From: a virus
Length of the DNA stretch: 32,872 nucleotides
Virus record (IMG/VR): IMGVR_UViG_3300030328_001841
Coordinates: 1 to 32,872 of that record
Reading direction: 5' to 3' (one strand)
Shown: in pieces, positions 1 through 32,872 of the stretch
Layout of the letters: every line of letters begins with the position of its first letter
How positions within the stretch are numbered: the stretch's first letter is position 1
The notes under the pieces: generated by a model
What the model was told of the DNA's origin: nothing
Databases searched by the model: none
What the model saw: the letters and a program-made list of their open reading frames with translations, nothing else
Translations under genes and position numbers: made by a program

Positions 1-131
1 AAGAGGTTAAACATAGATAATAATCCTACAAAAGAACATTTAGAAAATTTAAAAACAATAGCTGATAAAGTGTTTCAACCAATAAGAGACCATTTCAGTT
101 GTCCTATACATATTTCTTCTGGTTATAGAGG
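1..131. repeat. Terminal direct repeat, left copy
   Basis: Matches bases 32742-32872 over 131 positions with one difference (A at 78, G at 32819). The change is CAA to CAG, both Gln, in the endolysin frame. The reading frame runs through the junction, so the repeat is assembly overlap of a circular or permuted genome (unit length 32,741 bp) rather than a functional repeat. Confidence 0.95.
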
Positions 132-495
132 TGAGGCATTAAACAGAGCAATTAAAGGTTCTAGTTCTACAAGTTTGCATATGTCTGGACAAGCATTAGA
201 TATTGATATGGACTATACTAATGTTTCTAATAAAGAAATCTTTGAGTTTATAAAAGACAATTTAGAGTTTGATACACTAATATGGGAGTATGGTGATGAA
301 TCACCAAATTGGGTTCATGTTAGTTACAGAGAAGGTAAGAATAGAAATCAAATACTGGAGGCATATAAAGATCCTGTAACCAGTATTACAAAATATAAAA
401 TGTATGAGCCAAGAAAAGAAAAAGAAGAAGTTAAAGGATACAAAAGTAGGAAAGTTCCTTCTAGGAAAGACAGGACTACTAAACAATCTAGTTAA
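1..495 (+). CDS. Peptidase M15-family endolysin (3' part; gene begins at 32688)
   Basis: Joined across the circular junction, the gene is 32688-32741 plus 1-495, giving 182 residues. The body carries the M15_3 (D,D- or L,D-carboxypeptidase/endopeptidase) pattern: ISSGYRG, then SLHMSGQALDID with the zinc-binding His and Asp, then WVHVSY with the third ligand His. Such enzymes cut peptide stems of peptidoglycan. No signal peptide is visible, so export would depend on holin-type pores. A GTG at base 70 is an internal codon, not the start. The lysine-rich C-terminus overlaps the holin gene by 92 bp in another frame. Family assignment is firm; the exact bond cut is not known. Confidence 0.88.
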   Translation, partial: KRLNIDNNPTKEHLENLKTIADKVFQPIRDHFSCPIHISSGYRGEALNRAIKGSSSTSLHMSGQALDIDMDYTNVSNKEIFEFIKDNLEFDTLIWEYGDESPNWVHVSYREGKNRNQILEAYKDPVTSITKYKMYEPRKEKEEVKGYKSRKVPSRKDRTTKQSS

Positions 496-823
496 TATAG
501 CACCTGATACAGGTGTTTTTGGGCTTGTAAAGGACTTAATTAATAAAGATGATAGTTTACCTCCATTAGATAAAGAAGAAGCCTTAAAACTGCTAGAATT
601 AGATATGGCAGAAATGGAGGCTGTAACTAGAAGGTGGGAGGCTGATGCTAAGAGTGGAAGTTGGCTAAGTCAGAATGTAAGACCAATGTCTCTGATCTTT
701 ATGTTATTGGTATATGCAATAGGCTTTTTCTTCAAGTATGAGTTAGATGTAGTTAACCAGCTCCTAATGTTAATGGTTGGTGCTTACTTTGGAGGTAGGT
801 CATTTGAAAAAACCAGATCCTGA
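404..823 (+). CDS. Holin, GTA-type three-TM family
   Basis: The 139-residue protein has a lysine-rich N-terminus (MSQEKKKKKL), a middle acidic helix (LDMAEMEAVTRRWEADA), the conserved stretch SWLSQNVRPMSL, and two clear hydrophobic segments (SLIFMLLVYAIGFFF and LLMLMVGAYFGG). This is the layout of the GTA_holin_3TM family, which forms inner-membrane lesions that release endolysin. It starts inside the endolysin gene (92-bp overlap, different frame), which couples expression of the two lysis proteins. The stop overlaps the next start as TGATG. The family call rests on the WxxD..SWLSQNVRP pattern and membrane topology. Confidence 0.8.
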   Translation: MSQEKKKKKLKDTKVGKFLLGKTGLLNNLVNIAPDTGVFGLVKDLINKDDSLPPLDKEEALKLLELDMAEMEAVTRRWEADAKSGSWLSQNVRPMSLIFMLLVYAIGFFFKYELDVVNQLLMLMVGAYFGGRSFEKTRS

Positions 824-951
824 TGACAGAAAAACTTAAATCTAAGTGTCAATGTGGTAGGTCCAGGAGTAGAGATGGTTATTGTGATGGAAGTCATAAG
901 ACTACTAAACATCTATTTGACTTTAATGACTTACCATTTCCTTATCTATAA
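823..951 (+). CDS. Small CDGSH-type iron-sulfur protein
   Basis: A 42-residue ORF beginning on the holin stop (TGATG). It contains CQCGRSRSRDGYCDGSH (residues 9-25), matching the CDGSH 2Fe-2S ligand set Cys-x-Cys ... Cys-Asp-Gly-Ser-His. The spacing between the second and third Cys is nine residues instead of the usual eight, and the proline normally before the third Cys is absent. The C-terminus (LFDFNDLPFPYL) is hydrophobic and aromatic. Known CDGSH proteins bind a labile 2Fe-2S cluster for electron or cluster transfer; what one does beside a phage holin is unknown. Short length and complete motif make it likely real. Confidence 0.72.
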   Translation: MTEKLKSKCQCGRSRSRDGYCDGSHKTTKHLFDFNDLPFPYL

Positions 952-1112
952 TATACTTATAATTATTATGGAGTTATATATATAACTATAGTATTACACT
1001 ATTATATTTATAATAAAGTATTATAGTATATTATAATAATTTTGTTAAAAAGTTTGCTATTTATGTAAATAAATTGTATTATAGCAGTCTAAACACTTAA
1101 AATTATAAAATT
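952..1112. promoter_or_regulatory. AT-rich palindromic intergenic region; candidate origin/early promoter
   Basis: This 161-bp gap between the lysis and early genes is almost pure A/T. It holds a perfect 16-bp palindrome, AGTTATATATATAACT (972-987), and a hairpin TATAATA-aag-TATTATA (about 1010-1026), with repeats of TATAGTAT. TTATA stands exactly ten bases before the ATG at 1113. I infer an early promoter, an unwinding element, or both. No repeated initiator boxes could be identified by eye. Confidence 0.45.
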
Positions 1113-1724
1113 ATGAAAACACTTTTTCCAAATTTAGTACCAAAAAACAGGATCACTAAAAGGATATTTATGAACAACATTACTTTAAAGAAATATAAAG
1201 AATGTAACAGTAGAGAAGGTATGGCTTTTTCTGCTGACTTTTATTATAAAGGAGTTAAACTAGGAGAAATCCAAGATAATGGTATGGGTGGTGAATTACA
1301 AATAGAGACCTATTCAAAAGTTTCTAAAGATGAGTATGAATGGGATGATACTATTCATAAAATATTTGATAGAATAAGTAAAGGAGAATTACATAGAGTA
1401 ACTACTATAAAAAATGATGATGGGTCATTCTTTGAAACTGAGGATGATTTAGCATCATTATTCTATCACATTGTTGACAGACATATAAATACTAAAGAGA
1501 TAAATAAAATCTACAGAAAGGGAATCATTCTAGAATCAAAAGAAGGTAGCTGGGAAGTAGATGGTGCATATAGATGTATTGCTTGGAAACAAACAATACC
1601 AGCCTTCTTAAAAAGAGGTACTACTGCAAAATTGTCTGTAGAGAGAGAATTAAAGAGGTTAATAGATAAAGGTGAAAGAATTATTAATGAAGATTACCTC
1701 AAATCTTTAGGGTTAGTATTCTAA
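1113..1724 (+). CDS. Hypothetical early protein, 203 aa
   Basis: First gene after the AT-rich gap and the only one in its unit, since a strong terminator follows. The protein is mixed alpha/beta, soluble, with no signal peptide or membrane segment. It has many charged residues, an acidic middle, and a Lys/Arg-rich C-terminal helix (ELKRLIDKGERIINEDYLKSL). I recognise no catalytic motif. Start chosen at the first ATG because TTATA lies at -10 relative to it; an internal ATG at 1171 would remove 19 residues. Its position as a stand-alone first gene suggests early host takeover or regulation, which is inference only. Confidence 0.7.
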   Translation: MKTLFPNLVPKNRITKRIFMNNITLKKYKECNSREGMAFSADFYYKGVKLGEIQDNGMGGELQIETYSKVSKDEYEWDDTIHKIFDRISKGELHRVTTIKNDDGSFFETEDDLASLFYHIVDRHINTKEINKIYRKGIILESKEGSWEVDGAYRCIAWKQTIPAFLKRGTTAKLSVERELKRLIDKGERIINEDYLKSLGLVF

Positions 1725-1748
1725 CTATTTTTTCATATGTTAATTAGG

Positions 1749-1779
1749 AAAGCCTCAGCATTTAGCTGGGGTTTTTTTT
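1749..1779 (+). terminator. Rho-independent terminator
   Basis: Stem AAAGCCTCAGC / GCTGGGGTTTT with a five-base loop (ATTTA), two G-T wobbles, and a run of eight T after the stem. It closes the 1113-1724 unit just before the NinG-like gene. Confidence 0.85.
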
Positions 1780-1792
1780 ATACCTTTATTTA

Positions 1793-2185
1793 ATGGCTAA
1801 GAAACCAACTAGAAAGACTTTGATTAGAAAGCTAGATAAACTGTTTAGTGAGTACATTAGAAAGAGGGATACAGATGCTAATGGTTATGGTTTATGTTGT
1901 ACTTGTAGTAAAAAGATTCATTACAAAGAAGGACATTGTGGGCATTTTATGAGTAGAAGACACTACAAAACTAGATGGGATGAGGAGAATGTAAACTTAC
2001 AATGTGCTGGATGTAATACATTCAGAGGAGGAGAGCAATACAAGTTTGCATTATTTTTAAACAATAAGTATAAAACAGATAAAGCTAGTGAATTGCTTGT
2101 TAAATCAAGAGAAACAGCTAAATTCAGTTTGTCTGATCTAGAAGAAAAAATAGATTTCTTCAAAAGTTTATTGCAGGATCTATAA
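1793..2185 (+). CDS. NinG-like recombination nuclease
   Basis: The 130-residue protein matches the lambda NinG/Rap family. A basic N-terminal helix is followed by a Cys/His cluster: CCTC near 35-38, HCGHFMSRR at 48-56, RWDEENVNLQCAGCNTFRGGE at 61-81. The paired CxxC motifs should bind zinc, and the HCGH..R..RWDE..N part resembles an HNH-type nuclease core. NinG/Rap is a structure-specific nuclease used in phage recombination. It opens the replication/recombination block and is preceded by the 1749-1779 terminator. The C-terminal third is a plain charged helix. Confidence 0.85.
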   Translation: MAKKPTRKTLIRKLDKLFSEYIRKRDTDANGYGLCCTCSKKIHYKEGHCGHFMSRRHYKTRWDEENVNLQCAGCNTFRGGEQYKFALFLNNKYKTDKASELLVKSRETAKFSLSDLEEKIDFFKSLLQDL

Positions 2186-2207
2186 TATATTATATAATTT
2201 TTATAAC

Positions 2208-2231
2208 TTTATTGTTGAAAAACACAATAAA
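2208..2231 (+). promoter_or_regulatory. Stem-loop abutting the start codon at 2232
   Basis: Perfect 8-bp inverted repeat TTTATTGT / ACAATAAA with loop TGAAAAAC; the last stem base touches the ATG of the next gene. There is no T-run, so it is not a classic terminator. It could control initiation or stabilise the mRNA end. Confidence 0.45.
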
Positions 2232-2516
2232 ATGTCAATATTCTTTCAAAACAAGGGTGAAGAACCCACAGCAAAAGACAGTCTGATTCAAGATTACAAA
2301 AATAGATTTGATCAGATGAATGAACTCTACAAAGATATGTATTCAGAATGTAGAGAATTATTAAGAGAAAATACAAGTTTAAAGATGGAAGTTAGCCAAC
2401 TTAAAAGCAAAGTAGATGCTCTAGATAATGTTTTCCAAGAATGGAAAAACCAAAGTGAAGATATAAATAAAGATTTAAACATAAATAAACTATATGATGG
2501 AATCCAAAAATATTAA
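2232..2516 (+). CDS. Hypothetical coiled-coil protein, 94 aa
   Basis: Residues about 17-80 form a continuous charged heptad-like helix (YKNRFDQMNELYKDMYSECR, then LRENTSLKMEVSQLKSKVDAL), so the protein is probably a coiled-coil oligomer. No enzyme motif or membrane segment is seen. Its start abuts a perfect stem-loop, and its end overlaps the next gene by 23 bp. Its place upstream of the SSB-like and helicase genes suggests a replication accessory, but nothing in the sequence proves it. Confidence 0.6.
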   Translation: MSIFFQNKGEEPTAKDSLIQDYKNRFDQMNELYKDMYSECRELLRENTSLKMEVSQLKSKVDALDNVFQEWKNQSEDINKDLNINKLYDGIQKY

Positions 2517-2910
2517 AACTAGCACAGTCAAATCTATTACACCAAAAGGTACTTGGAGTAATGGTAAGCAAACTTATAATAAGTATGCTGTAGAAATGAC
2601 TAATGGTGATGTACCAGATTTCTCTGCTATTGGAGAATTTAAAAAGAAGAAAGGTGAAACAATCTTCTATACTTTAGATGAGAAAAATTATGGTAGAATG
2701 CAGCCAACTCCTCAAGACTATAAAGAAAAAGATAACAGTATGACACAACAAGAATCTATAGCTAGGTCTGTTGGTATCAATAATGCTTGTTCTTTAGTTG
2801 CAACTGAGGTTTGGAATAAAGCTACCAAAGAAGAAAAGAGAGAGATGCTTCAAGAAATTCAAGATGTATCAATCTATTTATATAAAAGTGTATTAACTAA
2901 ACCACAATAA
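2494..2910 (+). CDS. Hypothetical replication-block protein, 138 aa
   Basis: The N-terminal half (residues 8-65) is beta-rich: STVKSITPKGTW, then TYNKYAVEMTNGD and GETIFYTLDEKNYG. It could be a small OB-type nucleic-acid-binding fold. The C-terminal half is helical (QQESIARSVGINNACSLVA, EEKREMLQEIQDVSIYLYKS). That beta-then-helical layout resembles DNA-binding proteins often found in phage replication modules, but no family motif is certain. Two consecutive ATGs (2494 and 2497) are possible starts. It lies two bases upstream of the SSB-like gene. Confidence 0.6.
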   Translation: MMESKNIKTSTVKSITPKGTWSNGKQTYNKYAVEMTNGDVPDFSAIGEFKKKKGETIFYTLDEKNYGRMQPTPQDYKEKDNSMTQQESIARSVGINNACSLVATEVWNKATKEEKREMLQEIQDVSIYLYKSVLTKPQ

Positions 2911-2912
2911 TT

Positions 2913-3191
2913 ATGAGTAAACCAGATTTTGTAGGAGGTATCTATTTAGATGAATCTCCAAAAGAGTTTGTAGTTGTAAAGATGAGACTTAATGTTGATA
3001 GGTTTCAGCAATTCTTAGAGAATCCATATGTAAAGGAATTTGCTAAGAAGAACAATGGGTATATTAATATGGATATACTCAAAAGTAAGAATGGTAAATT
3101 ATATATTCCATTTAGTGAATTTATACCAGAGAAAAAAGTAACAACAACTGAACACAATCCAGACAGAGAACTTGATGAAGTTCCATTCTAA
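2913..3191 (+). CDS. Putative single-stranded DNA-binding protein
   Basis: The 92-residue protein has a beta-rich body (GGIYLDESPKEFVVVKMRLN, GYINMDILKSKNGKLYIPFS). It ends in an acidic tail closing with ELDEVPF, close to the DDDIPF tip by which bacterial SSBs recruit partners. It is shorter than E. coli SSB (178 aa) but within the range of phage SSBs. It is followed after three bases by the helicase gene, the usual neighbourhood. The tail motif is the main evidence; the OB fold itself is inferred. Confidence 0.6.
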   Translation: MSKPDFVGGIYLDESPKEFVVVKMRLNVDRFQQFLENPYVKEFAKKNNGYINMDILKSKNGKLYIPFSEFIPEKKVTTTEHNPDRELDEVPF

Positions 3192-3194
3192 AAT

Positions 3195-4118: not shown

Positions 4119-4566
4119 GATTTGGGTAAACATATGTAAAAGTTTTGGGTTGGATAGACACACAGCAGAAGACTTAGTACAAGAGATGTATATTAAAATT
4201 CATTATGTTACAGAAAAAGGAACTGATATAAGTTATGGTGATGATGATATTAATTATTATTACATTTTTAAAACATTATATACAATGTTCTTACAACTGA
4301 AAAAAAAGAAAAACAGGATCACATTTGTAAGTGAAGAAATACTTAAAAATATTGAAGATGCAGAAGTGGTTGAATTTCAAAAGGTAGAGAAAAGGTTTAA
4401 TGAAGAATTTGCAAAGCTACATTGGTATGATCAGAAGGTCTTTGAAATTGTTGCCTCTGGTACAAAGATTTCAGAACTGTCCAGGAAGACTACAATAACA
4501 TATATTAGTCTTTACAATACATATAGAAATGTAAAGAAACTTTTGAAAAAAAATATAGGATTATGA
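4081..4566 (+). CDS. Sigma-70-like RNA polymerase factor
   Basis: About 161 residues with a sigma region-2-like stretch (FGLDRHTAEDLVQEMYIKIH, near the N-terminus) and a C-terminal segment that fits a region-4 helix-turn-helix (LHWYDQKVFEIVASGTKISE followed by a second helix). Size and arrangement match ECF-type sigma factors. Start chosen at ATG 4081, with ATG 4084 and TTG 4078 as alternatives; all lie inside the helicase gene. A phage sigma would redirect host RNA polymerase to phage promoters; the TTATA boxes upstream of several units are candidate targets. The linker between the regions is short and divergent. Confidence 0.65.
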   Translation: MMNILEKAYKKHKIWVNICKSFGLDRHTAEDLVQEMYIKIHYVTEKGTDISYGDDDINYYYIFKTLYTMFLQLKKKKNRITFVSEEILKNIEDAEVVEFQKVEKRFNEEFAKLHWYDQKVFEIVASGTKISELSRKTTITYISLYNTYRNVKKLLKKNIGL

Positions 4567-4814
4567 AGATAGAGAAAGGTATTAAAAGATATTTTTTAAA
4601 TGGATATAGAATGGCAAGAGGACAAAAAAGAAAGAAAGAAATGAAGATAGGAGATTTAACAGAAAAGATAATAAGAATAATAACATTTGGTTATGGAAAG
4701 AGAATAGCAAAATTTATATCAAGATTACTTGGGTACAAAGATTGTGGATGTGATAAAAGAAAAGAGAAGTTAAATAAATATATATTTACAAAAGATGGGA
4801 TTAAGAAGTTATAA
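4563..4814 (+). CDS. Hypothetical basic protein with CGC motif, 83 aa
   Basis: Very lysine/arginine-rich, with a basic N-terminus (RMARGQKRKKEMK), a central helix (DLTEKIIRIITFGYGKRIAK) and a C-terminal DCGCDKRKEKLNKY motif. It overlaps the sigma-like gene as ATGA and the next gene by 20 bp. Charge suggests nucleic-acid binding. No family is certain. The next gene also has a Cys-Gly-Cys motif (PCGCGG), so the two may be related or work together. Confidence 0.6.
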   Translation: MKIEKGIKRYFLNGYRMARGQKRKKEMKIGDLTEKIIRIITFGYGKRIAKFISRLLGYKDCGCDKRKEKLNKYIFTKDGIKKL

Positions 4815-5052
4815 GGCTTTGTTGAGACAACAAATGAATGAAGAAGACTACATAGAGTTTGCTGAATTTCAAACAGCTATGGAGAAGGGATTTACAGATG
4901 AGGATTTAAAGGTTGTATATAAATTACATTCAAAGTATTTTGTACATCCATTTCAAATACCTTGTGGATGTGGAGGAGTTAAGAAGATGGATACAATAAC
5001 TAGATGGATTCAGGATCTGGAAAAAATATATAACAATGGTATTCAAACCTAG
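4795..5052 (+). CDS. Hypothetical protein with CGCGG motif, 85 aa
   Basis: Mostly helical (YKALLRQQMNEEDYIEFAEF) with a central PCGCGGVKKMDTITRWI segment. No membrane segment or signal peptide. It overlaps the previous gene by 20 bp and the nuclease gene by 17 bp, so the three are translated together. The Cys pair could hold a metal, but two cysteines alone would need a partner or dimer. Function not recognised. Confidence 0.6.
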   Translation: MGLRSYKALLRQQMNEEDYIEFAEFQTAMEKGFTDEDLKVVYKLHSKYFVHPFQIPCGCGGVKKMDTITRWIQDLEKIYNNGIQT

Positions 5053-5515
5053 AAGTTATCAGAATAGAGGGAATTGGAAAAAAGGTGAATTATCTGAAAA
5101 AAGATTTAAAAAGTATATGGACAAAATAGGAGTAGGAGCTGTAAAAACATCAACTTATGTGGATAAGAATTATCACATTGATTTCATTATTGGTGAGGTT
5201 ACTCCAATAGACCTTAAAGGAGATAAAAATACTGAGGCAGTATGGTTAGAAAAAAGAAATGTATGGGGAGGTAAAGGTTCATTGTATGGATTTGCAAAGT
5301 ATATGGTAATAGAGTATCTGGACATAAACAGTTATGTTTTTTATGACAGATTAGGATTAGTTAGATACATTAAAAGATTTCAAGAAGTCTGTATCAATAA
5401 ATCTGATTACCATTGTTTATATACCAGAGATGGTAACAAAGATGTAATAATTAAAGTAAGAGAATCAGATATAAGAGATTATGAAAGATTTAGATTTCAA
5501 TACAGAAGTTCCTAG
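5036..5515 (+). CDS. PD-(D/E)XK-type nuclease, resolvase-like
   Basis: The 159-residue protein has the order of PD-(D/E)XK nucleases: an N-terminal helix with Glu (GELSEKRFKKYM, 17-28), then HIDFII with Asp49, then PIDLKGDK giving Asp59-Leu-Lys61, followed by aromatic strands (GSLYGFAKYMVIEYLD). Small phage enzymes of this type are Holliday-junction resolvases or endonucleases. Its location among SSB, helicase and NinG-like genes supports a recombination or repair job. Exact substrate is unknown. Confidence 0.6.
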   Translation: MVFKPRSYQNRGNWKKGELSEKRFKKYMDKIGVGAVKTSTYVDKNYHIDFIIGEVTPIDLKGDKNTEAVWLEKRNVWGGKGSLYGFAKYMVIEYLDINSYVFYDRLGLVRYIKRFQEVCINKSDYHCLYTRDGNKDVIIKVRESDIRDYERFRFQYRSS

Positions 5516-5813
5516 CAAAGATATTGATAGAGAACTTGTAAGCAAAAAGCTAGACAATCTTAAAGATTTGCAGTATTTAACAAATGCTGAGATAGCTAAT
5601 AAAGTATTATTAGATTGGCAGAAGAATCATCCAACTAATGATAGATTAGAGACATTAATAAATGCTGTAGTTCAAATACATTTTTATGTACAAGAATTGC
5701 AGAATGACAGACATCTTTTGATGTTAAGTATAGATGAGTATAGATCAGATAAATTAAGAGCAATTGAAAGAGCTAGAAAGGCTGAATCCAAATTACAAGC
5801 CAAAAAAGATTGA
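5481..5813 (+). CDS. Hypothetical helical protein, 110 aa
   Basis: Entirely helical by composition, with acidic and Leu-rich segments and a C-terminal charged helix (SDKLRAIERARKAESKLQAK) that looks like a coiled coil. It overlaps the nuclease gene by 35 bp and the next ORF by about 50 bp, an unusually large overlap even for this phage. No motif recognised. Confidence 0.55.
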   Translation: MKDLDFNTEVPSKDIDRELVSKKLDNLKDLQYLTNAEIANKVLLDWQKNHPTNDRLETLINAVVQIHFYVQELQNDRHLLMLSIDEYRSDKLRAIERARKAESKLQAKKD

Positions 5814-6057
5814 GTTAGGAGTAGAATTAGAATTTGAAACTAATACAATTTATAGAGGTGCAGAGATAGATATAGAGAATCTATTTATAGACCAACTGAA
5901 TTTAATCTGGATGGATTTTGAAGCAATACCAAATATGTATGAAGAAGTCCTTGTTACATTTCAGAATATGGAATTACTAGGAAGGATTATAGGAAAATTC
6001 TATCATGTACATAGAGACACATTATTAATAACAGTAACACTAAAACTACAAGAATGA
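5764..6057 (+). CDS. Hypothetical protein, 97 aa (TTG start)
   Basis: The only long start option is TTG 5764, inside the previous gene; the next in-frame ATG lies deep in the conserved-looking body. The protein is beta-rich with alternating acidic and hydrophobic residues (GVELEFETNTIYRGAEIDIE; LIWMDFEAIPNMYEEVLVTF) and ends in HVHRDTLLITVTLKLQE. It overlaps the RecE-like gene by 4 bp (ATGA). Function not recognised; the start is uncertain. Confidence 0.5.
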   Translation: MKELERLNPNYKPKKIELGVELEFETNTIYRGAEIDIENLFIDQLNLIWMDFEAIPNMYEEVLVTFQNMELLGRIIGKFYHVHRDTLLITVTLKLQE

Positions 6058-6830
6058 AAATCACACTATTAGATGGCAAGGTTTGGGATAGAGATGAGAT
6101 CCTGGACAAGTCTGGAGATGATGAATTTTACTATGGATATTTAGGTAAGTATGCCTTCAGCTCCACAGCAATAAAACATTTATTGTCTTCACCAAAAACA
6201 TACAGACATATTTTAGAATATGGTCAATCAGAGGCACAAGCATTAAGAGATGGATGGCTATTCCATACTTGTGTACTAGAACCAGAAGTGTTCAATAGTC
6301 AAATCTTTGTAAATGTCCAGAGTAAGAATACAAAGAAATATAAAGATGCAGTTAAACAATATGGCAAAGTGTTTACTCTTAAAGAGAAACATGATGCAGA
6401 GAGGTTGGCTGATGCTCTACTTAGGAATGAATTGGTGCTTGAGAAGTTGAATGATGCTGAGTTTGAACAAGCAGAAATTGGAGAAGTGTTTGGATTCCCA
6501 TTTAGAGCAAAGGCTGATGTCTTAACAAATAATTCAGAGATGTATGATTTAAAAAGTACAGCATCTCTACAAGGATGGAAATATAGTGCAGACAAATATG
6601 GATATGATGTTCAAGCATTTCTATACTGTACTTTATTTGATATACTGCCTAGCAAGATGGGATTTATTGTAATAGATAAAGGTTCACTTGACATAGGATA
6701 TGCACAAGTAACAGATGAGTTTTATGAAAGAGGTATGATGAAGGTGAAAAAGGCTTTAGCTACTTATGAGGAATGGTTTATGAGAGAGGGTGCAGATTTA
6801 GACCAATATTATATAAACATAGAACTATGA
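6054..6830 (+). CDS. RecE-like exonuclease, PDDEXK_12 (DUF3799) type
   Basis: The 258-residue protein fits the YqaJ/RecE-like group seen in phages. An N-terminal part (AFSSTAIKHLLSSPKTYRHI; GWLFHTCVLEP) is followed by the nuclease core: FRAKADVL (Asp155), MYDLKSTAS (Asp165-Leu-Lys167) and YGYDVQAFLYC (Gln187). These enzymes resect double-stranded ends for single-strand annealing. With the NinG-like, SSB-like and resolvase-like genes it forms a recombination set. No RecT/Erf annealase was recognised, so the partner may be one of the unknown early genes. Confidence 0.78.
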   Translation: MKITLLDGKVWDRDEILDKSGDDEFYYGYLGKYAFSSTAIKHLLSSPKTYRHILEYGQSEAQALRDGWLFHTCVLEPEVFNSQIFVNVQSKNTKKYKDAVKQYGKVFTLKEKHDAERLADALLRNELVLEKLNDAEFEQAEIGEVFGFPFRAKADVLTNNSEMYDLKSTASLQGWKYSADKYGYDVQAFLYCTLFDILPSKMGFIVIDKGSLDIGYAQVTDEFYERGMMKVKKALATYEEWFMREGADLDQYYINIEL

Positions 6831-7004: not shown

Positions 7005-7766
7005 ATGGAAAGCAACATAATATACAATGAGGATTGTTTAGAAACTATGATTAGATTTCCAGACAATTCAATAGACCTTGTATTAACATCTCCACCATAT
7101 AACATTATAAGACCTAAAGGTAATGATGTTTATTATGATGTGTATGTTGATAATAAATCAAATAAAGAATATATAGATTGGACTATTGATATATTTAACA
7201 GTTATGATAGAATCTTAAAACCAGATGTGCCAGTAATTTATAATCTAAGTTATGGGCAAGAAAATTCTGAGATCATGAATCTTACATTAGCTGAAATATT
7301 GAAACAGACTAATTTTACATTAGCAGATATTATTGTCTGGAAGAAAGGAAATGCAATACCTAATTCCACATCACATAATAAACTAACTAGAATAGTAGAA
7401 TTTATATATATATTTTGTAGGACTGATGAGTTTCAAACTTTTAAAACTAATAAAGAAATAACAAAGAAGAACTCAGCTGGGCAAACTTACTATGCTAATA
7501 TATTTAATTTTGTTGAAGCAGTTAATCAAGATGAGTATTCTGGCATTAATACAGCTACATTTAGTTCTGAATTAGTGAGAAAACTCTTAGATATATATGC
7601 AAAACCAGACAGTCTGATCTATGATTCTTTTATGGGGACTGGCACAACAGCAGTAGGTGCTTTAAGAAATAACCATAGATATGTAGGGAGTGAGATTAGC
7701 AAACAACAATGTGAATATGCTAATAAAAGATTAAAGCCTTATCTTACACAAACTAAATTATTTTAA
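7005..7766 (+). CDS. DNA amino-methyltransferase, beta-class N6A/N4C
   Basis: The 253-residue protein has catalytic motif IV TSPPYN at 28-33 ahead of the AdoMet-binding motif DSFMGTGTT (about 207-215), the order of beta-class enzymes (N6_N4_Mtase family). It transfers methyl to an exocyclic amino group of A or C in duplex DNA. TSPPYN occurs in both N6A and N4C enzymes, so the base cannot be told. No restriction partner is adjacent, so it is an orphan. It joins the next methyltransferase by TAATG. The genome's context-restricted GATC sites make it a good candidate for protection against host restriction. Confidence 0.88.
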   Translation: MESNIIYNEDCLETMIRFPDNSIDLVLTSPPYNIIRPKGNDVYYDVYVDNKSNKEYIDWTIDIFNSYDRILKPDVPVIYNLSYGQENSEIMNLTLAEILKQTNFTLADIIVWKKGNAIPNSTSHNKLTRIVEFIYIFCRTDEFQTFKTNKEITKKNSAGQTYYANIFNFVEAVNQDEYSGINTATFSSELVRKLLDIYAKPDSLIYDSFMGTGTTAVGALRNNHRYVGSEISKQQCEYANKRLKPYLTQTKLF

Positions 7767-8419
7767 TGAAAGTATTAGAGTTATTTGCTGGGTCTTGTAC
7801 ATTTAGTAATGAAGCTAAAAAACTAGGCTATGAAACTTTTACAACTGACTATAAAGATTTTGATAATGTTGATTATGTTACTGACATTATTAGTTTTGAT
7901 ATTAAACAAGTTCCATTTAAGCCAGACTTGATATGGGCATCTCCTCCTTGTACAGCATTTACTGTTATGAGAATTGCTGATAATTGGCATTTTGATAATA
8001 CACCTAAATCATCTAAGGCTTGTTTAGGATTAGCATATGTCTATAAAACTATAGAGATTATAAAAAAGCTAGAGCCTAAATTTTGGTACATAGAGAATCC
8101 TAGAGGTAAACTTAGGAAGATGAAGATTATGGAGAATCTAGACAGAACAACAATATGGTATTGTCAATATGGTGAGACTAGAGCAAAGCCAACTGATATA
8201 TGGTCAAATAATATTAGGTCATTAGAAAATCCAGATGGTTGGAATCCTAAACCAGAGTGTTTTAATAACAATCCTAATTGTCATCATGAGAGAGCAAGTA
8301 GGGGTGTGTGGAATACTGGAACTCAGAGACTAACTAATAAGAAGTTAGGTAATAATTATGAGAGGAGTATTCTGCCAGTAGAATTATGTGTAGAAATTTT
8401 AAAAAGTAGTAAATTATGA
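7766..8419 (+). CDS. C5-cytosine-methyltransferase-like protein, compact
   Basis: Motif I is ELFAGSCTF (5-13), motif IV ASPPCT with the candidate catalytic Cys62, motif VI YIENPRG (108-114), and a motif-VIII-like segment QYGETRAKPTDIWSN. At 217 residues it is far shorter than typical C5 enzymes (over 300 aa) and leaves little room for a target-recognition domain between motifs VIII and X. It may have a short target, need a partner, or act on an unusual substrate. It directly follows the amino-MTase gene. The complete lack of CpG in this genome makes its target of interest. Confidence 0.8.
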   Translation: MKVLELFAGSCTFSNEAKKLGYETFTTDYKDFDNVDYVTDIISFDIKQVPFKPDLIWASPPCTAFTVMRIADNWHFDNTPKSSKACLGLAYVYKTIEIIKKLEPKFWYIENPRGKLRKMKIMENLDRTTIWYCQYGETRAKPTDIWSNNIRSLENPDGWNPKPECFNNNPNCHHERASRGVWNTGTQRLTNKKLGNNYERSILPVELCVEILKSSKL

Positions 8420-9314: not shown

Positions 9315-9625
9315 AAGTATTTGCAAGTAAGATGGGAAATGTAAGTAAGGCTTGTAAAGCAGCTAACATTTCTAGACAGACTTTTTATGATTGGATGAAG
9401 GATCAGAGTTTTTCTGAAAAGGTTGAAGAAGTAAAAGAAGGCTTGTTAGATTTTGCAGAACACCAATTACTATCAAATATTAAAAGTGGTAAAACTGCTG
9501 AGATCCTGTTTTATTTAAAAACCAAAGGTAAGAAAAGAGGTTACATAGAAAGACAAGAAGTAGATACAGTAGGAGATAAGATGTTTGAGGTAAAGATTCT
9601 AAAGAATGAAACAGATACAGACTAA
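9287..9625 (+). CDS. Terminase small subunit-like HTH protein
   Basis: The 112-residue protein has an N-terminal helix-turn-helix (GNVSKACKAANISRQTFYDW) typical of phage small terminase DNA-binding domains, followed by a helical oligomerisation part (GLLDFAEHQLLSNIKSGKTA, EILFYLKTKGKKRGY). It overlaps the large-terminase gene by 20 bp, the expected arrangement. It would recognise the packaging site and load the large subunit. Confidence 0.8.
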   Translation: MAKDRDKFLEVFASKMGNVSKACKAANISRQTFYDWMKDQSFSEKVEEVKEGLLDFAEHQLLSNIKSGKTAEILFYLKTKGKKRGYIERQEVDTVGDKMFEVKILKNETDTD

Positions 9626-10760
9626 TGTTGTATTTGAACTATTAGAAAAGAACACATCTAAAATAACTTGCCTACAAGGAGGTTCTAGGTCTGGTAAAAC
9701 TTACAATACACTATTATGGATTATATTCTCATACTGTCATAAGAATACTGGTAAAGTTATTAGCTGCTGTAGAAAGACTATGCCCAGTCTCAAAAGTTCA
9801 ACTATTAGGGATTTTTTAGAGATACTCAGAAACAATGAGCTGTACTCAGAAATCTATCACAACAAAACATCTAATGAATATTGGCTTAATGGAAACCTTA
9901 TAGAGTTCTTTAGTTTAGATATGGGGTCCAGAGTAAGAGGAAGAAAGAGAGACCTTCTATTTATCAATGAAGCAAATGAGATAGATTATGAGGCTTGGAA
10001 TCAGCTCCTATTTAGAACAGATGGTAGAATCATATTAGACTATAACCCACATGATCAATTCCATTGGATATATGATAAGGTTCTAGATAGACCAGATGCT
10101 CAACTACACATCTCTACATATCTAGATAATCCATTTATATCAGACACACTTAAAACAGAGATAGAAAGATTAAAAGATACAGACCCACAATATTGGTTAG
10201 TATATGGACTTGGACAAAGAGGTCAGAATAGGTCATTAGTATTTAAGTTCCATATAATAGATGAAATACCATCTACTGCTAAGTTTATAGGTTATGGATT
10301 AGACTTTGGCTATGCATCTGATCCTTCAAGTTTATGTGCTACCTGGACAGAAGGTGATAATATGTACACTAAGGAATTACTCTATGAAAGAGGACTTACA
10401 AATCAAGACTTAGCAAACAAGTTCTCTGAACTAGGATTAGATAAAAGAGATGAGATATTTGGAGATTCCTCAGAGCCTAAATCTATAGAGGAGATATATA
10501 GGATGGGATGGAATATAAAAGGTAAGAAGAAGTTTGAAATAAACTATGGTATAGACCTTATTAGAAGATATAAGCTACATATAACTAGAGATAGTTTAAA
10601 TGGTATTAGAGAACTAGAAAGCTACAAATACATAGAAGACAGAAATAACAATCCAACAAATAAACCACAGGATCTCAACAACCATTTTTGTGATGCCTTA
10701 AGATATAGTATAGTGCATAGATTATCTAGAGTTAATTTTGGGAGGTATGCTATTAAATAA
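9606..10760 (+). CDS. terL: Terminase large subunit
   Basis: A 384-residue packaging motor. Walker A is GGSRSGKT (25-32) and Walker B LLFINEAN (117-124). The C-terminal RNaseH-like nuclease has acidic residues in GLDFGYASD (Asp233), FGDSSEPKSI (Asp287) and HFCDALRYS (Asp363). Length is slightly short compared with 420-500 aa but all motifs are present. It cuts and pumps DNA into proheads with the portal (25116-26924). Directly after the stop comes a candidate structured RNA, then an opposing gene cluster. Confidence 0.92.
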   Translation: MKQIQTNVVFELLEKNTSKITCLQGGSRSGKTYNTLLWIIFSYCHKNTGKVISCCRKTMPSLKSSTIRDFLEILRNNELYSEIYHNKTSNEYWLNGNLIEFFSLDMGSRVRGRKRDLLFINEANEIDYEAWNQLLFRTDGRIILDYNPHDQFHWIYDKVLDRPDAQLHISTYLDNPFISDTLKTEIERLKDTDPQYWLVYGLGQRGQNRSLVFKFHIIDEIPSTAKFIGYGLDFGYASDPSSLCATWTEGDNMYTKELLYERGLTNQDLANKFSELGLDKRDEIFGDSSEPKSIEEIYRMGWNIKGKKKFEINYGIDLIRRYKLHITRDSLNGIRELESYKYIEDRNNNPTNKPQDLNNHFCDALRYSIVHRLSRVNFGRYAIK

Positions 10761-27520: not shown

Positions 27521-30286
27521 ATGGCAAGTAGTTTAACAGGAATATCTATTGCATCAAGTTATGATTCACTACTAAAAGTTGGAGATAATGATGGGTTGTC
27601 AGCAAGTTTACAAGTTATTTCAGATGGTCTAGGGACTGAAACTGGAGTAAGTCTAAACAATGCAGGAGATTTAACAGCAACAGGAACAATTACAGCAAAT
27701 AGCTTTGTAGGAGACCTTAGTGGTAATATCTCAGGAAACTCAACAGTATCTGGTACTTTAACTTTTGGTTCATTATCAGATGGTACAATAACAATAACAG
27801 ATTTTAAAGATGAGGATAATATGTCCTCTGATAGTGCAACAGCACTAGCAACTCAACAATCAATTAAAGCATATGTAGATGCACAAGTAACAGCATCTGA
27901 TTTAGACTTTCAAGGTGATTCAGGAGGTGTACAAAGTATAGACCTAGATAGTGAAACATTTACTATTGCAGGTACAAGTAATGAAATATCAACAACATCA
28001 GCTGGTAATGCTTTAACTATTGGATTAAACCCAAATATAAGTGGTTTAACATCAGTAGCAGCTACAACTTTTACTGGAGCATTGACTGGAAATTCTAGTA
28101 CAACAACAGCATTAGCTACAGCTAGAAATATTGCAGGAGTTAGTTTTGATGGAACTGGAGATATTTCACTTTCAACAAGTAATATTACAGAAGGCACAAA
28201 CTTATATTACACAACTGCTAGATTTGATACTGCTTTAGGAACAAAATCTACAACAGACCTTTCAGAAGGTACAAATTTATATTACACAGATGCTAGGGCA
28301 GATGCAAGAGTAAATCTACAAACAGGATCTAACTTGGATTTATCTAGTAAATCTACATCAAATTTAAGTGAAGGCAGCAATCTGTACTTTACTGATGAGA
28401 GAGTGGATGACAGAGTTAGCAATTTAGTAGTAGCTGGTACATCAATTAGTGCAACATATGATGATGCAGCAAATTCATTAACTATTGCTAATACAGCACC
28501 TGACCAAACAGTAGCTGTAGTGGGTTCTAATGGAGTTACAAATGGTGGGAGTTACCCATCCTTGACAGTTTCTGGAGTTGATGCTACTACAAGCAGCAAA
28601 GGGGTTGCCTCTTTCTCATCATCACATTTTAGTGTTAGTAGTGGAGCTGTAAGTATTGCAGCAGATTCTATTGATGACACACTAATAGACTTTGGAACTG
28701 GAACAAATCAAGTTGATACAGATGTTCTTCCAGAGGGTAGCACAAACCAATACTATACATCAACTAGAGCTAATTCAGATTTTGATACTAGGTTGGCTAC
28801 AAAAGACACAGATAACTTGTCTGAGGGGTCTTCTAATCTTTACTATACAGATGCTAGGTCTAATTCAGCATTTGATACTAGGCTAGGAACAAAGACTACA
28901 GACAATCTAACAGAAGGAAGTACCAACAAATATTGGACTGCTGAAAGAACAGATGATCAGGTGAATACTTTAATGACAGCTGGTAGTGGAATATCACTTA
29001 CTTATGATGATGCTGGAGGTACTTTAACTGTAGCTTCAACTGTTAGTGGGTTAGCATTAACTGATTTATCTGCAACAGATGCAGGAGGAGATGGTAGCTT
29101 TGCTTATAACAACTCAACTGGTGTATTTACTTATACTGGACCTAGTGCAGCAGAAGTAAAAGCACACATTGATAAGACATATGTAGATAGTTTAGGAATA
29201 GCAGCTACAACAGCAGCTAACCTAACTGGTACACCAAACATATCTGTAGGTACTATTGGAGCATCTGGAACTATTACTGGTAACTTAACTGGTGATGTTA
29301 CTGGAGATGTAACTGGAGATGTTACAGGTAATGTAACTGGTAACTTAACTGGAAATGTAACAGGAAACACAAGTGGTTCATCAGGATCTACAACTGGAAA
29401 TGCAGCAACAGCTACAGCATTACAAACTGCAAGAACTATAAATGGTGCTTCATTTGATGGAACAGCTAATATTTCAGTTGATACAGATGCAGTATCAGAA
29501 GGTTCAAGTAATCTTTATTACACAACTGCAAGATGGGATACAAGATTAGGTACTAAAGATACAGATGACCTTACAGAAGGTACTACTAATAAATATAATG
29601 TAACACATACTGGTGAGGTTACTGGGGGGACTGCATTGACTATTGCAAATGATGCAGTAGTAACAGCAAAAATATTAGATGATAATGTTACATATGCAAA
29701 AATACAAGACACTACAACTGATAATAGAGTATTAGGTGCAGTAACAGCTGGTGTTATTAGTGAAGTTCAAGTAGCTACAGATATGATTGCAGATGATGCA
29801 GTTACATCAGCAAAAGTAGCATCAGATTTAAGAGCTGTAGAGTATATTGGTTTAGATTCTACAGATTATATGCAATTTACTGACAACACACAAATTGATT
29901 TATTTATAAACAACAGTAATGAGTTTAGATTTGAAGCAGATGGTGATTTTCATGCTGATGGAGATGTTATAGCATACTCTACAACTACACCTTCTGATGA
30001 AAGATTAAAAGAAAATATTGAAGTAATACATGATCCATTAGAAAAACTTGATCAGTTAAAGGGTGTAACATTTGATTGGAAGGATAGAGAAGACAAACAG
30101 TCTGGTGGTATAATTGCACAAGAGCTGCAAAAGGTATTACCAGAACTTGTAAGAGAGGTTGATAGCCTTAAAGGTGAAAATAGCTTTTTAGCAGTTGATT
30201 ATAATGGTGTAATTGCACTACTTGTTGAGGCTGTAAAAGAGTTAAGTGAAAAATGTAATAAGTGTAATGAAAATTGTAATAAATAA
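27521..30286 (+). CDS. Tail fibre with C-terminal S74 self-cleaving chaperone
   Basis: 921 residues. The shaft is Ser/Thr/Gly-rich with repeats of the form LSEGxNLYYTDARxDxRV (about residues 220-480) and a GDVTGDVTGNVTGNLTG series (about 585-615). Residues 822-921 form a Peptidase_S74/intramolecular chaperone domain: PSDERLKENI with Ser825 before the predicted cut, then GGIIAQELQKVLPELV and FLAVDYNGVIALLVEAVKEL. The domain trimerises the fibre and then releases itself. The last residues (CNKCNENCNK) are Cys-rich. The fibre likely recognises the host surface. Confidence 0.82.
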   Translation: MASSLTGISIASSYDSLLKVGDNDGLSASLQVISDGLGTETGVSLNNAGDLTATGTITANSFVGDLSGNISGNSTVSGTLTFGSLSDGTITITDFKDEDNMSSDSATALATQQSIKAYVDAQVTASDLDFQGDSGGVQSIDLDSETFTIAGTSNEISTTSAGNALTIGLNPNISGLTSVAATTFTGALTGNSSTTTALATARNIAGVSFDGTGDISLSTSNITEGTNLYYTTARFDTALGTKSTTDLSEGTNLYYTDARADARVNLQTGSNLDLSSKSTSNLSEGSNLYFTDERVDDRVSNLVVAGTSISATYDDAANSLTIANTAPDQTVAVVGSNGVTNGGSYPSLTVSGVDATTSSKGVASFSSSHFSVSSGAVSIAADSIDDTLIDFGTGTNQVDTDVLPEGSTNQYYTSTRANSDFDTRLATKDTDNLSEGSSNLYYTDARSNSAFDTRLGTKTTDNLTEGSTNKYWTAERTDDQVNTLMTAGSGISLTYDDAGGTLTVASTVSGLALTDLSATDAGGDGSFAYNNSTGVFTYTGPSAAEVKAHIDKTYVDSLGIAATTAANLTGTPNISVGTIGASGTITGNLTGDVTGDVTGDVTGNVTGNLTGNVTGNTSGSSGSTTGNAATATALQTARTINGASFDGTANISVDTDAVSEGSSNLYYTTARWDTRLGTKDTDDLTEGTTNKYNVTHTGEVTGGTALTIANDAVVTAKILDDNVTYAKIQDTTTDNRVLGAVTAGVISEVQVATDMIADDAVTSAKVASDLRAVEYIGLDSTDYMQFTDNTQIDLFINNSNEFRFEADGDFHADGDVIAYSTTTPSDERLKENIEVIHDPLEKLDQLKGVTFDWKDREDKQSGGIIAQELQKVLPELVREVDSLKGENSFLAVDYNGVIALLVEAVKELSEKCNKCNENCNK
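29275..29365 (+). repeat. Short tandem coding repeats in fibre shaft
   Basis: About seven imperfect copies of a 12-base unit encoding Gly-Asp/Asn-Val/Leu-Thr (for example GGTGATGTTACT). Such repeats can expand or contract by slippage and alter shaft length. Confidence 0.75.
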
Positions 30287-30292
30287 ATAGAT

Positions 30293-30769
30293 ATGGCTTT
30301 AATAGGGAAAATTACTTTATATGAATTGGTCAGAGATACAGATAATCCTGTTGAAATTAAAACTGTAAGACCTGATGGGACTGAAGAAACAATTGAACAA
30401 TACCCATACATTCAAAAAGAGGGTGAGGTTATTGAGGATGCTTATGTGTTAATTAAAATGGCAGCTATTCATTTAGATGATTATGATAGAATTGTTGAAG
30501 AAGTTGATGATGAAACTGGTCAAATAATTGGTGAAATTGAAACTACAGAAAGAGGTAATACAAAAAATGGATATAAGTTAAATATTAGATATTGTATTTA
30601 TGATTCTAAAGATTTAAGACAAGATAAATTCCATAAACCAATACATGAAATTGATGAAATGGAATGGATAATCATAGATGACTTATATCTAGGTGGTAAA
30701 AACCTAATTGAGTATTGTTATGATTGGATTAAAACTAAAAAAGGATTTGAAGAATTAATAAATGATTAA
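30293..30769 (+). CDS. Hypothetical tail-associated protein, 158 aa
   Basis: An acidic, beta-rich protein: MALIGKITLYELVRDTDNPV, then VIEDAYVLIKMAAIHLDDYD, ERGNTKNGYKLNIRYCIYDS and a C-terminal WIIIDDLYLGGKNLIEYCYD. It lies between two fibre genes, so a baseplate, hinge or fibre attachment role is plausible. No family is certain. Confidence 0.5.
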   Translation: MALIGKITLYELVRDTDNPVEIKTVRPDGTEETIEQYPYIQKEGEVIEDAYVLIKMAAIHLDDYDRIVEEVDDETGQIIGEIETTERGNTKNGYKLNIRYCIYDSKDLRQDKFHKPIHEIDEMEWIIIDDLYLGGKNLIEYCYDWIKTKKGFEELIND

Positions 30770-30772
30770 GAT

Positions 30773-31780
30773 ATGGCAGTACCAAGTTCAGGACAATTAA
30801 GATTAAGAGCAGATATAAACCAAGAAGTAAATGGTAATGATACAGATGATAATGTTTCTCTAGGAACTTTAGCAGATGATGCAGGATTTGATACTCCTCC
30901 AGATACAATGCAAGAGTTTTATGGCTATGTAAGTTATGAGCAGCCTACAATAAGTGGAACACCATCAACTCATGATGTGTATGATACTAATATGGATTGT
31001 GTATCACCTACATTTAGTAACCCAAGTGCAGGAAATGTAGAAAGAGGTTTTTATATTGGTACATCAACTACTGCAACAAGTAACACTTTTTATAGTGTTG
31101 GTAACACAACAGCTACATCTGGAACTTTTGAGTATGGTATTTCTGGTTTAAGTGGTGGTACAACATATAGAATTTTTGCTGTAATTAGAGATACACAATC
31201 ACCTGCAAGATTTACAGAGGCAGTAAGCTCTATGAAATCACAAGCAACATTAGCAGCAGTAAGTTATTCAACAGGATGGGGAGGTGCACAAAATTTATGG
31301 GGTTCTGAAGCAGCAGGGGCAGGAGATTTAAGTTGTAATGCAACTCTTTCATCATATTGTGGTTCATCTTATAATCATGTTTATTATGGTTGGAGTGGTT
31401 TAAGTGGAGGAGTTTCTAGGTCAATGACACATACTGGTGCAGCAGCTTGGGAAGGATATGCATCAAGTCCAAATGTTACTAGATATTGGGGTTGGAGAAC
31501 AGATGGTGTTACTACTGAACAAAGGTCAAACATGGGTGGTAGTATAGGTGGTTGTACAACTGGCTATGGTATTACATCAGAATCTAGTCATAACTGGTAT
31601 AGTTTACCAGCAGGTGATTCTACAACTAGAAGAACATTAACTGGAAAAAGTGGTAGTGGATGGGATACTGAAGGTTTCTGTTCTGTAGGGACTCAATATT
31701 GTGGTAGTGGTTATGCTAAAAGAGAACTCTCAGGAAGTGGTACAGGTTCTTGGTATTTCTATGCTTTTAACTACATATAA
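30773..31780 (+). CDS. Second tail fibre or adhesin
   Basis: 335 residues. The N-terminus (PSSGQLRLRADINQEVNGND, then DTPPDTMQEFYGY) is of the kind that attaches adhesins to phage tails. A fibronectin-III-like beta segment follows (PTISGTPSTHDVYDTNMDCV; GISGLSGGTTYRIFAVIRDT). The C-terminal half is Gly/Ser/Trp/Tyr-rich with scattered Cys (LSSYCGSSYNHVYYGWSGLS; GFCSVGTQYCGSGYAKRELS), typical for receptor-binding tips. No enzymatic motif is seen. Confidence 0.6.
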   Translation: MAVPSSGQLRLRADINQEVNGNDTDDNVSLGTLADDAGFDTPPDTMQEFYGYVSYEQPTISGTPSTHDVYDTNMDCVSPTFSNPSAGNVERGFYIGTSTTATSNTFYSVGNTTATSGTFEYGISGLSGGTTYRIFAVIRDTQSPARFTEAVSSMKSQATLAAVSYSTGWGGAQNLWGSEAAGAGDLSCNATLSSYCGSSYNHVYYGWSGLSGGVSRSMTHTGAAAWEGYASSPNVTRYWGWRTDGVTTEQRSNMGGSIGGCTTGYGITSESSHNWYSLPAGDSTTRRTLTGKSGSGWDTEGFCSVGTQYCGSGYAKRELSGSGTGSWYFYAFNYI

Positions 31781-31805
31781 TAATAAATTAAAAAAATAAT
31801 ATAAA

Positions 31806-32096
31806 ATGGCAGATTTAGATATAGATGAAATAAAGAAAAAGAAGGTTAATATCTCAGTAGAGAATTTGATCATGATAGGAGTAGGAATATTCTCACTTGT
31901 AGGTATGTGGTTTGCATTACAAGGTGAGATAGATGAGGCTAAAGAATTACCAGAGCCTCCTATAAGCAGAACAGAATTTGACTTAAAAGATTCTGCTATT
32001 AGAAATTCTATATTACAGACAGAGAAGAAGGTAGAAGAAAACTCAGATAAACTTGATAAGATAGATGAGAAACTTTATGAAATAATTAAAAAATGA
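31806..32096 (+). CDS. Membrane-anchored coiled-coil protein, 96 aa
   Basis: One transmembrane helix (ENLIMIGVGIFSLVGMWFAL, about 19-39), then a Pro-containing hinge (KELPEPPISRTEFDLKDSAI) and a C-terminal charged coiled coil (TEKKVEENSDKLDKIDEKLY). It starts the small lysis-region genes. It could be a spanin-type or holin-accessory protein; the coil after a TM fits an i-spanin, but no o-spanin partner is proven. Overlaps the next start (ATGA). Confidence 0.55.
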   Translation: MADLDIDEIKKKKVNISVENLIMIGVGIFSLVGMWFALQGEIDEAKELPEPPISRTEFDLKDSAIRNSILQTEKKVEENSDKLDKIDEKLYEIIKK

Positions 32097-32416
32097 GAAA
32101 TCTAATAATTATATTATCATTACTAATAAGTAGTGTTGCATACAGCCAAGACATAACTATATTACAAGTTAATGCAAAATGGAATAGCCATAATGATATA
32201 GAGATAAGAAACATAAAAGGAGCAAAGATACAATATGCAGTCTTAGAGGATCAGAGTGATAACTTTAAGCAAAGTATTAAATCAGTTCCAGCAATTTTAA
32301 TCTATAAAAATCAATCATTGGTGTGGAAACAAGAGGCAGGTTTATCTTTCACATTATCTATAAGTAGAGATGAGTTGATAGAACTTGTAAAGAAGTATTC
32401 AGACAATGGCAATTAA
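32093..32416 (+). CDS. Exported thioredoxin-fold protein without CxxC
   Basis: A signal peptide (MRNLIIILSLLISSVAYSQ) leads into a thioredoxin-like domain: DITILQVNAKWNSHNDIEIR, IQYAVLEDQSDNFKQSIKSV, then PAILIYKNQ with the typical cis-Pro position after SV. The active-site CxxC is missing (WNSHN in its place), and the mature protein has no Cys. It probably acts in protein interaction rather than disulfide exchange, in the periplasm. It lies in the lysis region. Fold is judged from pattern only. Confidence 0.6.
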   Translation: MRNLIIILSLLISSVAYSQDITILQVNAKWNSHNDIEIRNIKGAKIQYAVLEDQSDNFKQSIKSVPAILIYKNQSLVWKQEAGLSFTLSISRDELIELVKKYSDNGN

Positions 32417-32573
32417 TGATTTTGAACCCACTATTGTTGGCATAGTAGTATTTGTATTAAGCCTTCATCAATTAAATGAAGTTTTACAAGCAGTATTACT
32501 AATAATGACAATTATATATACTTTGTTCAGAATTATAGAAATGATAGATACTAGAAAAAACAATAACAAATAA
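32406..32573 (+). CDS. Small membrane protein, holin-like, 55 aa
   Basis: Two hydrophobic segments (TIVGIVVFVLSL and AVLLIMTIIYTLFRII) separated by a short polar loop, then a basic end (RKNNNK). Starts 11 bp inside the previous gene. Size and topology fit a second holin or antiholin alongside 404-823. No family is certain. Confidence 0.6.
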   Translation: MAINDFEPTIVGIVVFVLSLHQLNEVLQAVLLIMTIIYTLFRIIEMIDTRKNNNK

Positions 32574-32584
32574 AATTAATCAAG

Positions 32585-32683
32585 ATGGTAAGAATTTTAA
32601 AATGGTTAACAGATAAAATAAAAGCATTCAATAATAAAGTTGCAACTGCTTGGAATAAGTGGTTGAAAAAAATTAAAATGTAA
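32585..32683 (+). CDS. Cationic amphipathic peptide, 32 aa, in lysis region
   Basis: MVRILKWLTDKIKAFNNKVA is followed by TAWNKWLKKIKM. One Arg and eight Lys against one Asp give a net charge near +8. Hydrophobic residues I4, L8, I12, F15, V19, W23, W26 and I30 fall at 3-4 spacing, making one face of a helix, with Lys on the other. This is the form of membrane-active antimicrobial peptides and of the phage disruptin class. It lies between a holin-like gene and the endolysin (stop at 32683, endolysin ATG at 32688). ORF is short, so translation must be shown. Confidence 0.55.
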   Translation: MVRILKWLTDKIKAFNNKVATAWNKWLKKIKM

Positions 32684-32687
32684 ATAG

Positions 32688-32872
32688 ATGAAACTAAGTA
32701 AGAATTTATCTTTAGCAGAGGTAGTAAGAAGTGAGACAGCAAAGAGGTTAAACATAGATAATAATCCTACAAAAGAACATTTAGAAAATTTAAAAACAAT
32801 AGCTGATAAAGTGTTTCAGCCAATAAGAGACCATTTCAGTTGTCCTATACATATTTCTTCTGGTTATAGAGG
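32688..32872 (+). CDS. Peptidase M15-family endolysin (5' part, continues at base 1)
   Basis: The real start is ATG 32688, giving MKLSKNLSLAEVVRSETAKR and then a helix NIDNNPTKEHLENLKTIADK before VFQPIRDHF and the M15 SGYRG motif. At base 32742 the frame matches window base 1 exactly. The continuation is described in the entry for 1-495; the total is 182 residues. No signal peptide at this N-terminus. Confidence 0.88.
   Translation, partial: MKLSKNLSLAEVVRSETAKRLNIDNNPTKEHLENLKTIADKVFQPIRDHFSCPIHISSGYR
32742..32872. repeat. Terminal direct repeat, right copy
   Basis: Second copy of bases 1-131. It carries the 5' part of the endolysin gene. The single mismatch to the left copy is synonymous and may be a population variant or a read error. 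Confidence 0.95.

Follow-up and report, generated by a model that had tools for sequence, protein, structure and literature searches.

Absence of the dinucleotide CG from a complete phage genome and its probable link to a phage-encoded endonuclease

Why does the dinucleotide CG not occur even once in a complete phage genome? The window (the whole stretch of 32,872 nt analysed here, taken from an IMG/VR record) has ends that overlap by 131 bp with 99% identity, and thus represents a circularly closed, complete genome:

1-32872, no strand: complete circular phage genome with zero CpG (end overlap, CG count)

A script count over the 32,872 nt gave 0 CG on either strand, compared with approximately 795 expected from base composition and with a mean of 791 (minimum 710) in base-shuffled versions of the window. 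Arginine is encoded by AGA (304 codons) and AGG (64) and never by CGN. When each protein and its codon usage were held fixed, the shuffled sequences still contained a mean of 193 CpGs at codon junctions (minimum 154), so the zero cannot be due to codon choice alone. These counts bear out the first-pass annotation, which had noticed from the letters the complete lack of CG, the restriction of Arg codons to AGA and AGG, and an avoidance of NNC-GNN junctions beyond codon bias. In the literature searched, neither a phage devoid of CpG nor any dinucleotide completely missing from a complete dsDNA genome or a phage clade appears to have been described.

The phylogenetic extent of the loss was assessed from the terminase:

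9606-10760, plus strand: terminase large subunit (basis of the phylogeny)

Retrieval by terminase from IMG/VR gave relatives that, apart from a few, are CpG-free, and the same holds for retrieval by gene 5036-5515 (described below). After removal of regions at least 90% identical, the clade comprises 497,454 bp of non-redundant DNA with 10 CpGs, compared with 12,056 expected (observed/expected 0.0008). Since CpG is close to zero in nearly all of these relatives, its absence does not stem from an error in a single assembly. Five of the 10 stray CpGs lie within the initial 560 bp of a single contig, and four of the remaining five are in GCGC context (p=1.6e-6), which accounts for only 2.4% of the CpGs of the sister lineage. 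One lineage of the CpG-free type, G016, nevertheless tolerates four CpGs, which are present in several assemblies. A terminase tree with at least 60 relatives places the CpG-free phages in a single clade (support 98/93), to which a CpG-normal lineage (L039/L047) is sister. The CpG observed/expected ratio is ~0.5-0.6 in this sister and mostly 0.3-1.6 in relatives further out. The window terminase shares 36% identity with the terminase of Flavobacterium psychrophilum phages. Among cellular contigs that carry a related terminase, the closest belong to marine Flavobacteriaceae and Winogradskyella MAGs; the hosts are thus likely to be marine Flavobacteriaceae. In 20-kb samples of Flavobacteriaceae genomes the CpG ratio is 0.40-0.92, and CG, CATG and GATC are all normal in the sampled hosts. 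No CpG-free relative was found among cellular genome contigs. The first-pass annotation had named two outcomes that would refute it, namely many CG in a script count, or equal depletion in the host genome and in unrelated phages of the same composition as the sign of a mutational or general bias; neither outcome was observed. CpG loss is a clade trait, inherited with the phage.

Two methyltransferase genes of the window bear on the question of mutation or selection:

7005-7766, plus strand: N4/N6 DNA methyltransferase (accessory, not conserved in the clade)
7766-8419, plus strand: C5-methyltransferase-like protein (accessory, not conserved in the clade)

It is very improbable that mutation, either by CpG methylation and deamination or by a CpG-directed deaminase, erased all CpGs. 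The presence of the C5-methyltransferase-like gene would agree with such a process, as would the CA/TG value, which is 1.21 in the CpG-free clade compared with 1.05 in the sister; however, a raised CA/TG is also given by transitions under selection, and each of the two methyltransferase genes is missing from most CpG-free genomes, so that no conserved CpG methylase exists in the clade. Nor are deamination products in excess at constrained codons. At positions with CGN codons in the sister, the clade keeps Arg in 80% and has Cys, His, Gln, Trp or stop in 0.4%; NCA is not in excess at NCG sites, which change to NCA and NCT in the same proportion as is seen for NCA sites. Synonymous sites are saturated in this codon comparison, which is therefore supportive and not conclusive. 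An observed/expected ratio of 0.0008 would, furthermore, require approximately thousand-fold hypermutability. Deamination and the C5-methyltransferase were accordingly rejected as causes, the former because its signature is absent at CGN and NCG codons and the latter because its gene is not conserved; the role that the first-pass annotation had hinted at for 7766-8419 is not supported. Its preference for strong selection over deamination is upheld: the clade-wide counts, the codon comparison with the sister and the codon-preserving shuffles support strong selection, and not codon bias or deamination, as the basis of CpG avoidance.

Which agent exerts this selection? Only two genes are common to all nine near-complete CpG-free genomes and nearly absent from CpG-normal relatives, namely 5036-5515 and 5764-6057. 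They are situated with the following neighbours:

4795-5052, plus strand: small conserved gene upstream of the nuclease locus (marks the locus in distant relatives, together with 5481-5813)
5036-5515, plus strand: candidate CG-specific PD-(D/E)XK endonuclease of family A, 159 aa (conservation, residues, model, word association)
5481-5813, plus strand: conserved gene downstream of the nuclease locus (marks the locus together with 4795-5052)
5764-6057, plus strand: 97-aa acidic protein (found only in the CpG-free clade and the sister; alternative or accessory component)
6054-6830, plus strand: RecE/exonuclease VIII-like exonuclease (DUF3799)

Gene 5036-5515 is present in each of the 16 tested CpG-free records in which the locus is covered and in 9/9 near-complete genomes, and the 54 loci retrieved with it are essentially CpG-free. 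Its product shows an E...D...DxK pattern, in which H47, D49, D59, K61 and E72 are invariant in 30 sequences and E21 is nearly so. The AlphaFold model (pLDDT 92) has a restriction/homing-endonuclease/resolvase fold, with NhoI, Eco15I and I-Ssp6803I as best matches (Z 8-9) and resemblance also to PvuII and resolvases, in a second-look match list that does not exclude the families it leaves unlisted. The predicted alpha-beta core and the conserved E...D...(D/E)xK motif are those of the PD-(D/E)XK superfamily. A search of 299 host-family genomes returned no homologue of family A. Another nuclease gene of the window is also found in CpG-normal relatives:

1793-2185, plus strand: NinG/Rap-like junction endonuclease

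Distant family A-like homologues (31-36% identity) occur in CpG-keeping phages, several of which lack CATG instead. CG specificity thus does not extend to the entire family, and a change of specificity must be assumed; we rejected the idea that the entire 5036 superfamily recognizes CG, since these homologues sit in CpG-rich phages.

The sister lineage provides a further comparison. Its early region carries homologues of both 5036-5515 (57% identical) and 5764-6057 (52% identical), and its CpG content is ordinary. The presence of 5036-5515 was therefore discarded as a simple marker of CpG-free genomes and survives only when considered jointly with a modification cassette, which is found in 4/4 sister contigs that cover the next block and in none of the CpG-free loci. 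One enzyme of this cassette has T4 dCMP hydroxymethylase as its best match (T4 gp42-like) and keeps Asp at the T4 active-site position where a listed T4 variant has Asn instead; this residue sets the dCMP preference of the T4 enzyme. Judging from these sequences, the sister probably protects its DNA by cytosine modification, and each lineage with this nuclease (the CpG-free clade and the sister) is either without CpG or probably able to modify C. No dCMP hydroxymethylase or base-modification cassette was found in the window clade, which thus has no counterpart of the T4-type modified base.

Family A and CG loss belong to one clade and constitute a single evolutionary event for the CG link alone. 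Further out, the interval flanked by homologues of 4795-5052 and 5481-5813 is occupied by PD-(D/E)XK families that look unrelated. Phages with family B are without CATG, whereas those with family C have CATG and are without GATC (tetramer expectations were maximal-order Markov estimates within each locus). In dereplicated sets, CG is lost in 7/7 family A phages versus 0/58 others (p=1.4e-9) and GATC in 10/10 family C phages versus 13/54 non-C phages (p=7.6e-6); CATG is lost in 47/48 family B phages versus 2/17 others (p=1e-11), although family B is largely one phage group, whose 48 dereplicated members cannot be counted as that many independent events. The exception among family B phages, L157, keeps CATG and carries a methylase. 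Predictions made beforehand were then compared with scans of IMG/VR. Among 80 family C loci, the majority of which have quite dissimilar terminases, GATC was eliminated in 76 and CATG in nine; CATG was eliminated in 80/80 family B loci. In all four loci that carry both B and C, CATG and GATC are both absent.

Independent family switches are stronger evidence than the family B counts. On the terminase tree, family C was gained at least three times independently (L128, L167 and L334). These three have no GATC, and their CATG counts (observed/expected) are 23/37, 40/54 and 3/61, respectively; in their B-carrying neighbours (L132, L133 and L179) CATG is absent and GATC normal. The three counts suggest that CATG gradually returns after a switch from B to C. 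The isolate phage pT24 (in three pieces) has 0 GATC versus 365 expected. We do not count it as a clean confirmation for family C, because Tenacibaculum phage PTm1, from the same host genus, lacks GATC with no detectable family C gene. Agents other than family C also remove words, as PTm1 and the 13/54 non-C phages without GATC demonstrate. The structural model obtained for family C is weak, with pLDDT 78 and no significant match in the fold search. Pfam, PHROGs, NCBIfam and PADLOC gave no name for families A, B and C, apart from one weak PADLOC match to a family C protein (E=0.003), and a PDB sequence search gave no match for any of the three.

Our preferred explanation, to which we assign a probability of roughly 0.7, is that the product of 5036-5515 is the phage's own CG-specific endonuclease and that absence of the target from the genome makes the phage immune. 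The enzyme, expressed from the early gene block, would recognize the dinucleotide CG and most likely cut host DNA, for nucleotide recycling or shut-off; the DNA of competing phages may be cut as well, and the 6054-6830 exonuclease could finish degradation of the cut DNA. With no conserved cognate methylase, immunity would come from a genome purged of CG, and any CG newly arising by mutation would be a cut site, so that selection would hold the CpG count near zero. Relatives would follow the same logic at the same locus, family B being tied to CATG loss and family C to GATC loss, and the sister, which keeps the same nuclease and ordinary CpG, would probably be protected by cytosine modification. 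A specificity of two bases is unusual.

A host enzyme must be weighed against this. All hosts of the clade might carry a CpG-directed nuclease, as part of a restriction-modification or other defence system, from which the phages escape by eliminating CG and the sister by base modification. Host restriction of some kind would account for the words that have been eliminated lineage by lineage (CASTG, GTSAC, GGCC and GATATC, all at 0 in the window, and GATC at 0/89 in G016), for the lack of any strongly avoided word in the cassette-bearing sister (per-genome scan) and for PTm1, which is without GATC despite having no family C. Unlike these lineage-specific words, however, CG is lost clade-wide and the loss is inherited with the phage, a difference that favours a phage-borne agent. 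Moreover, CpG-normal relatives infect the same host family, and which word is missing depends on the nuclease family carried by the phage itself, also across independent switches of family. To our knowledge, no two-base restriction-modification system has been described. We regard a host nuclease as an unlikely source of the CpG loss. The first-pass annotation had proposed a host restriction or sensing system acting on CpG: a CpG-specific nuclease does remain the best fit, but the comparisons point to an enzyme encoded by the phage and not by its host.

Two further agents seem less likely still. CG might be recognized by another phage protein, for instance by the 97-aa product of 5764-6057 or by a complex that contains it; its confinement to the CpG-free clade and the sister is in keeping with this, but the protein has no feature that marks it as a nuclease, and among relatives a different nuclease family at the 5036 locus goes with a different missing word, which makes this improbable. 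Host sensing of CpG at the RNA or DNA level, with no direct cleavage, would likewise select against every CpG, yet it leaves unexplained the parallel losses of CATG and GATC that follow phage nuclease genes. We know of no bacterial CpG-sensing system of that kind, and consider this reading very improbable.

The proposed CG-specific phage nuclease may be an instance of something more general. It seems fairly probable that 'restriction without modification' is widespread, with a swappable early-gene endonuclease locus and self-immunity by deletion of the target word; the enzyme of the window clade, with CG as target, would then have the shortest specificity among such nucleases and would have brought about the first known CpG-free genomes. 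Our literature search returned no report of self-immunity by target-word removal in this form. Should the preferred explanation be right, a phage can wield a frequent-cutter nuclease with no methylase, and the word missing from a genome reveals the specificity of its uncharacterised nuclease. Many phage nucleases now listed as 'hypothetical' could then be tested directly and cheaply, and new enzymes might be obtained from them. A two-base CG cutter would be useful in methylation analysis. Missing words in phage genomes would thus not always be a mark of host restriction.

The proposed system shares features with several known ones. As in phage restriction-site avoidance, recognition words are eliminated, which also happens lineage by lineage in this clade; unlike the usual avoidance, the loss of CG extends over the whole clade, and the words lost in the family go with the nuclease that the phage itself carries. 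The product of 5036-5515 resembles type II PD-(D/E)XK enzymes (PvuII, NhoI/Eco15I and HinP1I) in predicted fold and active-site pattern, but has no significant sequence match to them and no paired methyltransferase, and CG would be a shorter recognition sequence. It does not form part of a restriction-modification system with a cognate methyltransferase, for neither methyltransferase of the window is conserved and, with the target word absent, there is nothing to methylate. T4-type degradation of host DNA combines nucleases specific for unmodified dC DNA with hydroxymethylcytosine in the phage. The likeness lies in a phage nuclease coupled to self-protection, and the CpG-normal sister even has a gp42-like dCMP hydroxymethylase; the window clade differs in having no modification cassette and would be protected by absence of the word. 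The chlorovirus PBCV-1 encodes the CviAI (GATC) and CviAII (CATG) restriction-modification systems and keeps and methylates its own sites, GATC occurring about once per 388 bp and CATG about once per 364 bp (PMC7248222). Chlorovirus endonucleases have been proposed to help in degradation of host DNA, which a related marseillevirus system does not do (PMC7253447). CviAI and CviAII include site-specific endonucleases of a DNA virus directed against very short words, as is proposed for the candidates described here, and their two words, GATC and CATG, are also those missing from phage relatives. In contrast to the chlorovirus, the phages studied here eliminate their sites, have no conserved cognate methylase, would target only two bases, and infect bacterial hosts.

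CTAG has been eliminated in 21 of 77 loci that carry family B, the nuclease family linked to CATG loss, and GGCC in 11 of the 15 that are testable (all among L410-L489); these losses may reflect further nuclease families or host systems. CATG itself is kept by a single family B phage, L157 (21 observed, 37 expected), which may be protected by methylation, and which encodes the following gene:

L157:7006-8022, N4/N6 methylase-like gene, adjoining a helicase

The Tenacibaculum phage PTm1 lacks GATC (0/24 and 0/47, observed/expected, in L491 and L492) and has no detectable nuclease of family C, the family linked to GATC loss. PTm1 encodes a pyrimidine hydroxymethylase.

The CpG-normal sister of the CpG-free clade carries a base-modification cassette, which in two of its loci lies at these positions:

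L057:892-4815, base-modification cassette
L316:6316-10142, base-modification cassette

It comprises a dCMP hydroxymethylase-like enzyme, a PALP-type PLP enzyme, two unknown proteins, MazG and DUF6378, and probably represents a new cytosine hypermodification pathway.

Strong and uniform CpG depletion was also recognized in two phages outside the CpG-free clade, L124 (1-17995) and L421, with observed/expected ratios of 0.10 and 0.15, respectively. Five CpGs lie within the first 560 bp (1-560) of the CpG-free contig L112/L003; either this stretch is a lysis gene that was imported recently, or the contig is chimeric at this end.

In CpG-free phages, the absence of words other than CG differs by lineage. 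CASTG (0 observed, ~36 expected), GTSAC, GGCC and GATATC are all absent from the window (1-32872), and GATC is absent from the CpG-free lineage G016 (L067/L068; 0/89). These absences look like host restriction-site avoidance, with CASTG and GTSAC corresponding to TspRI-type and Tsp45I-type sites, respectively.
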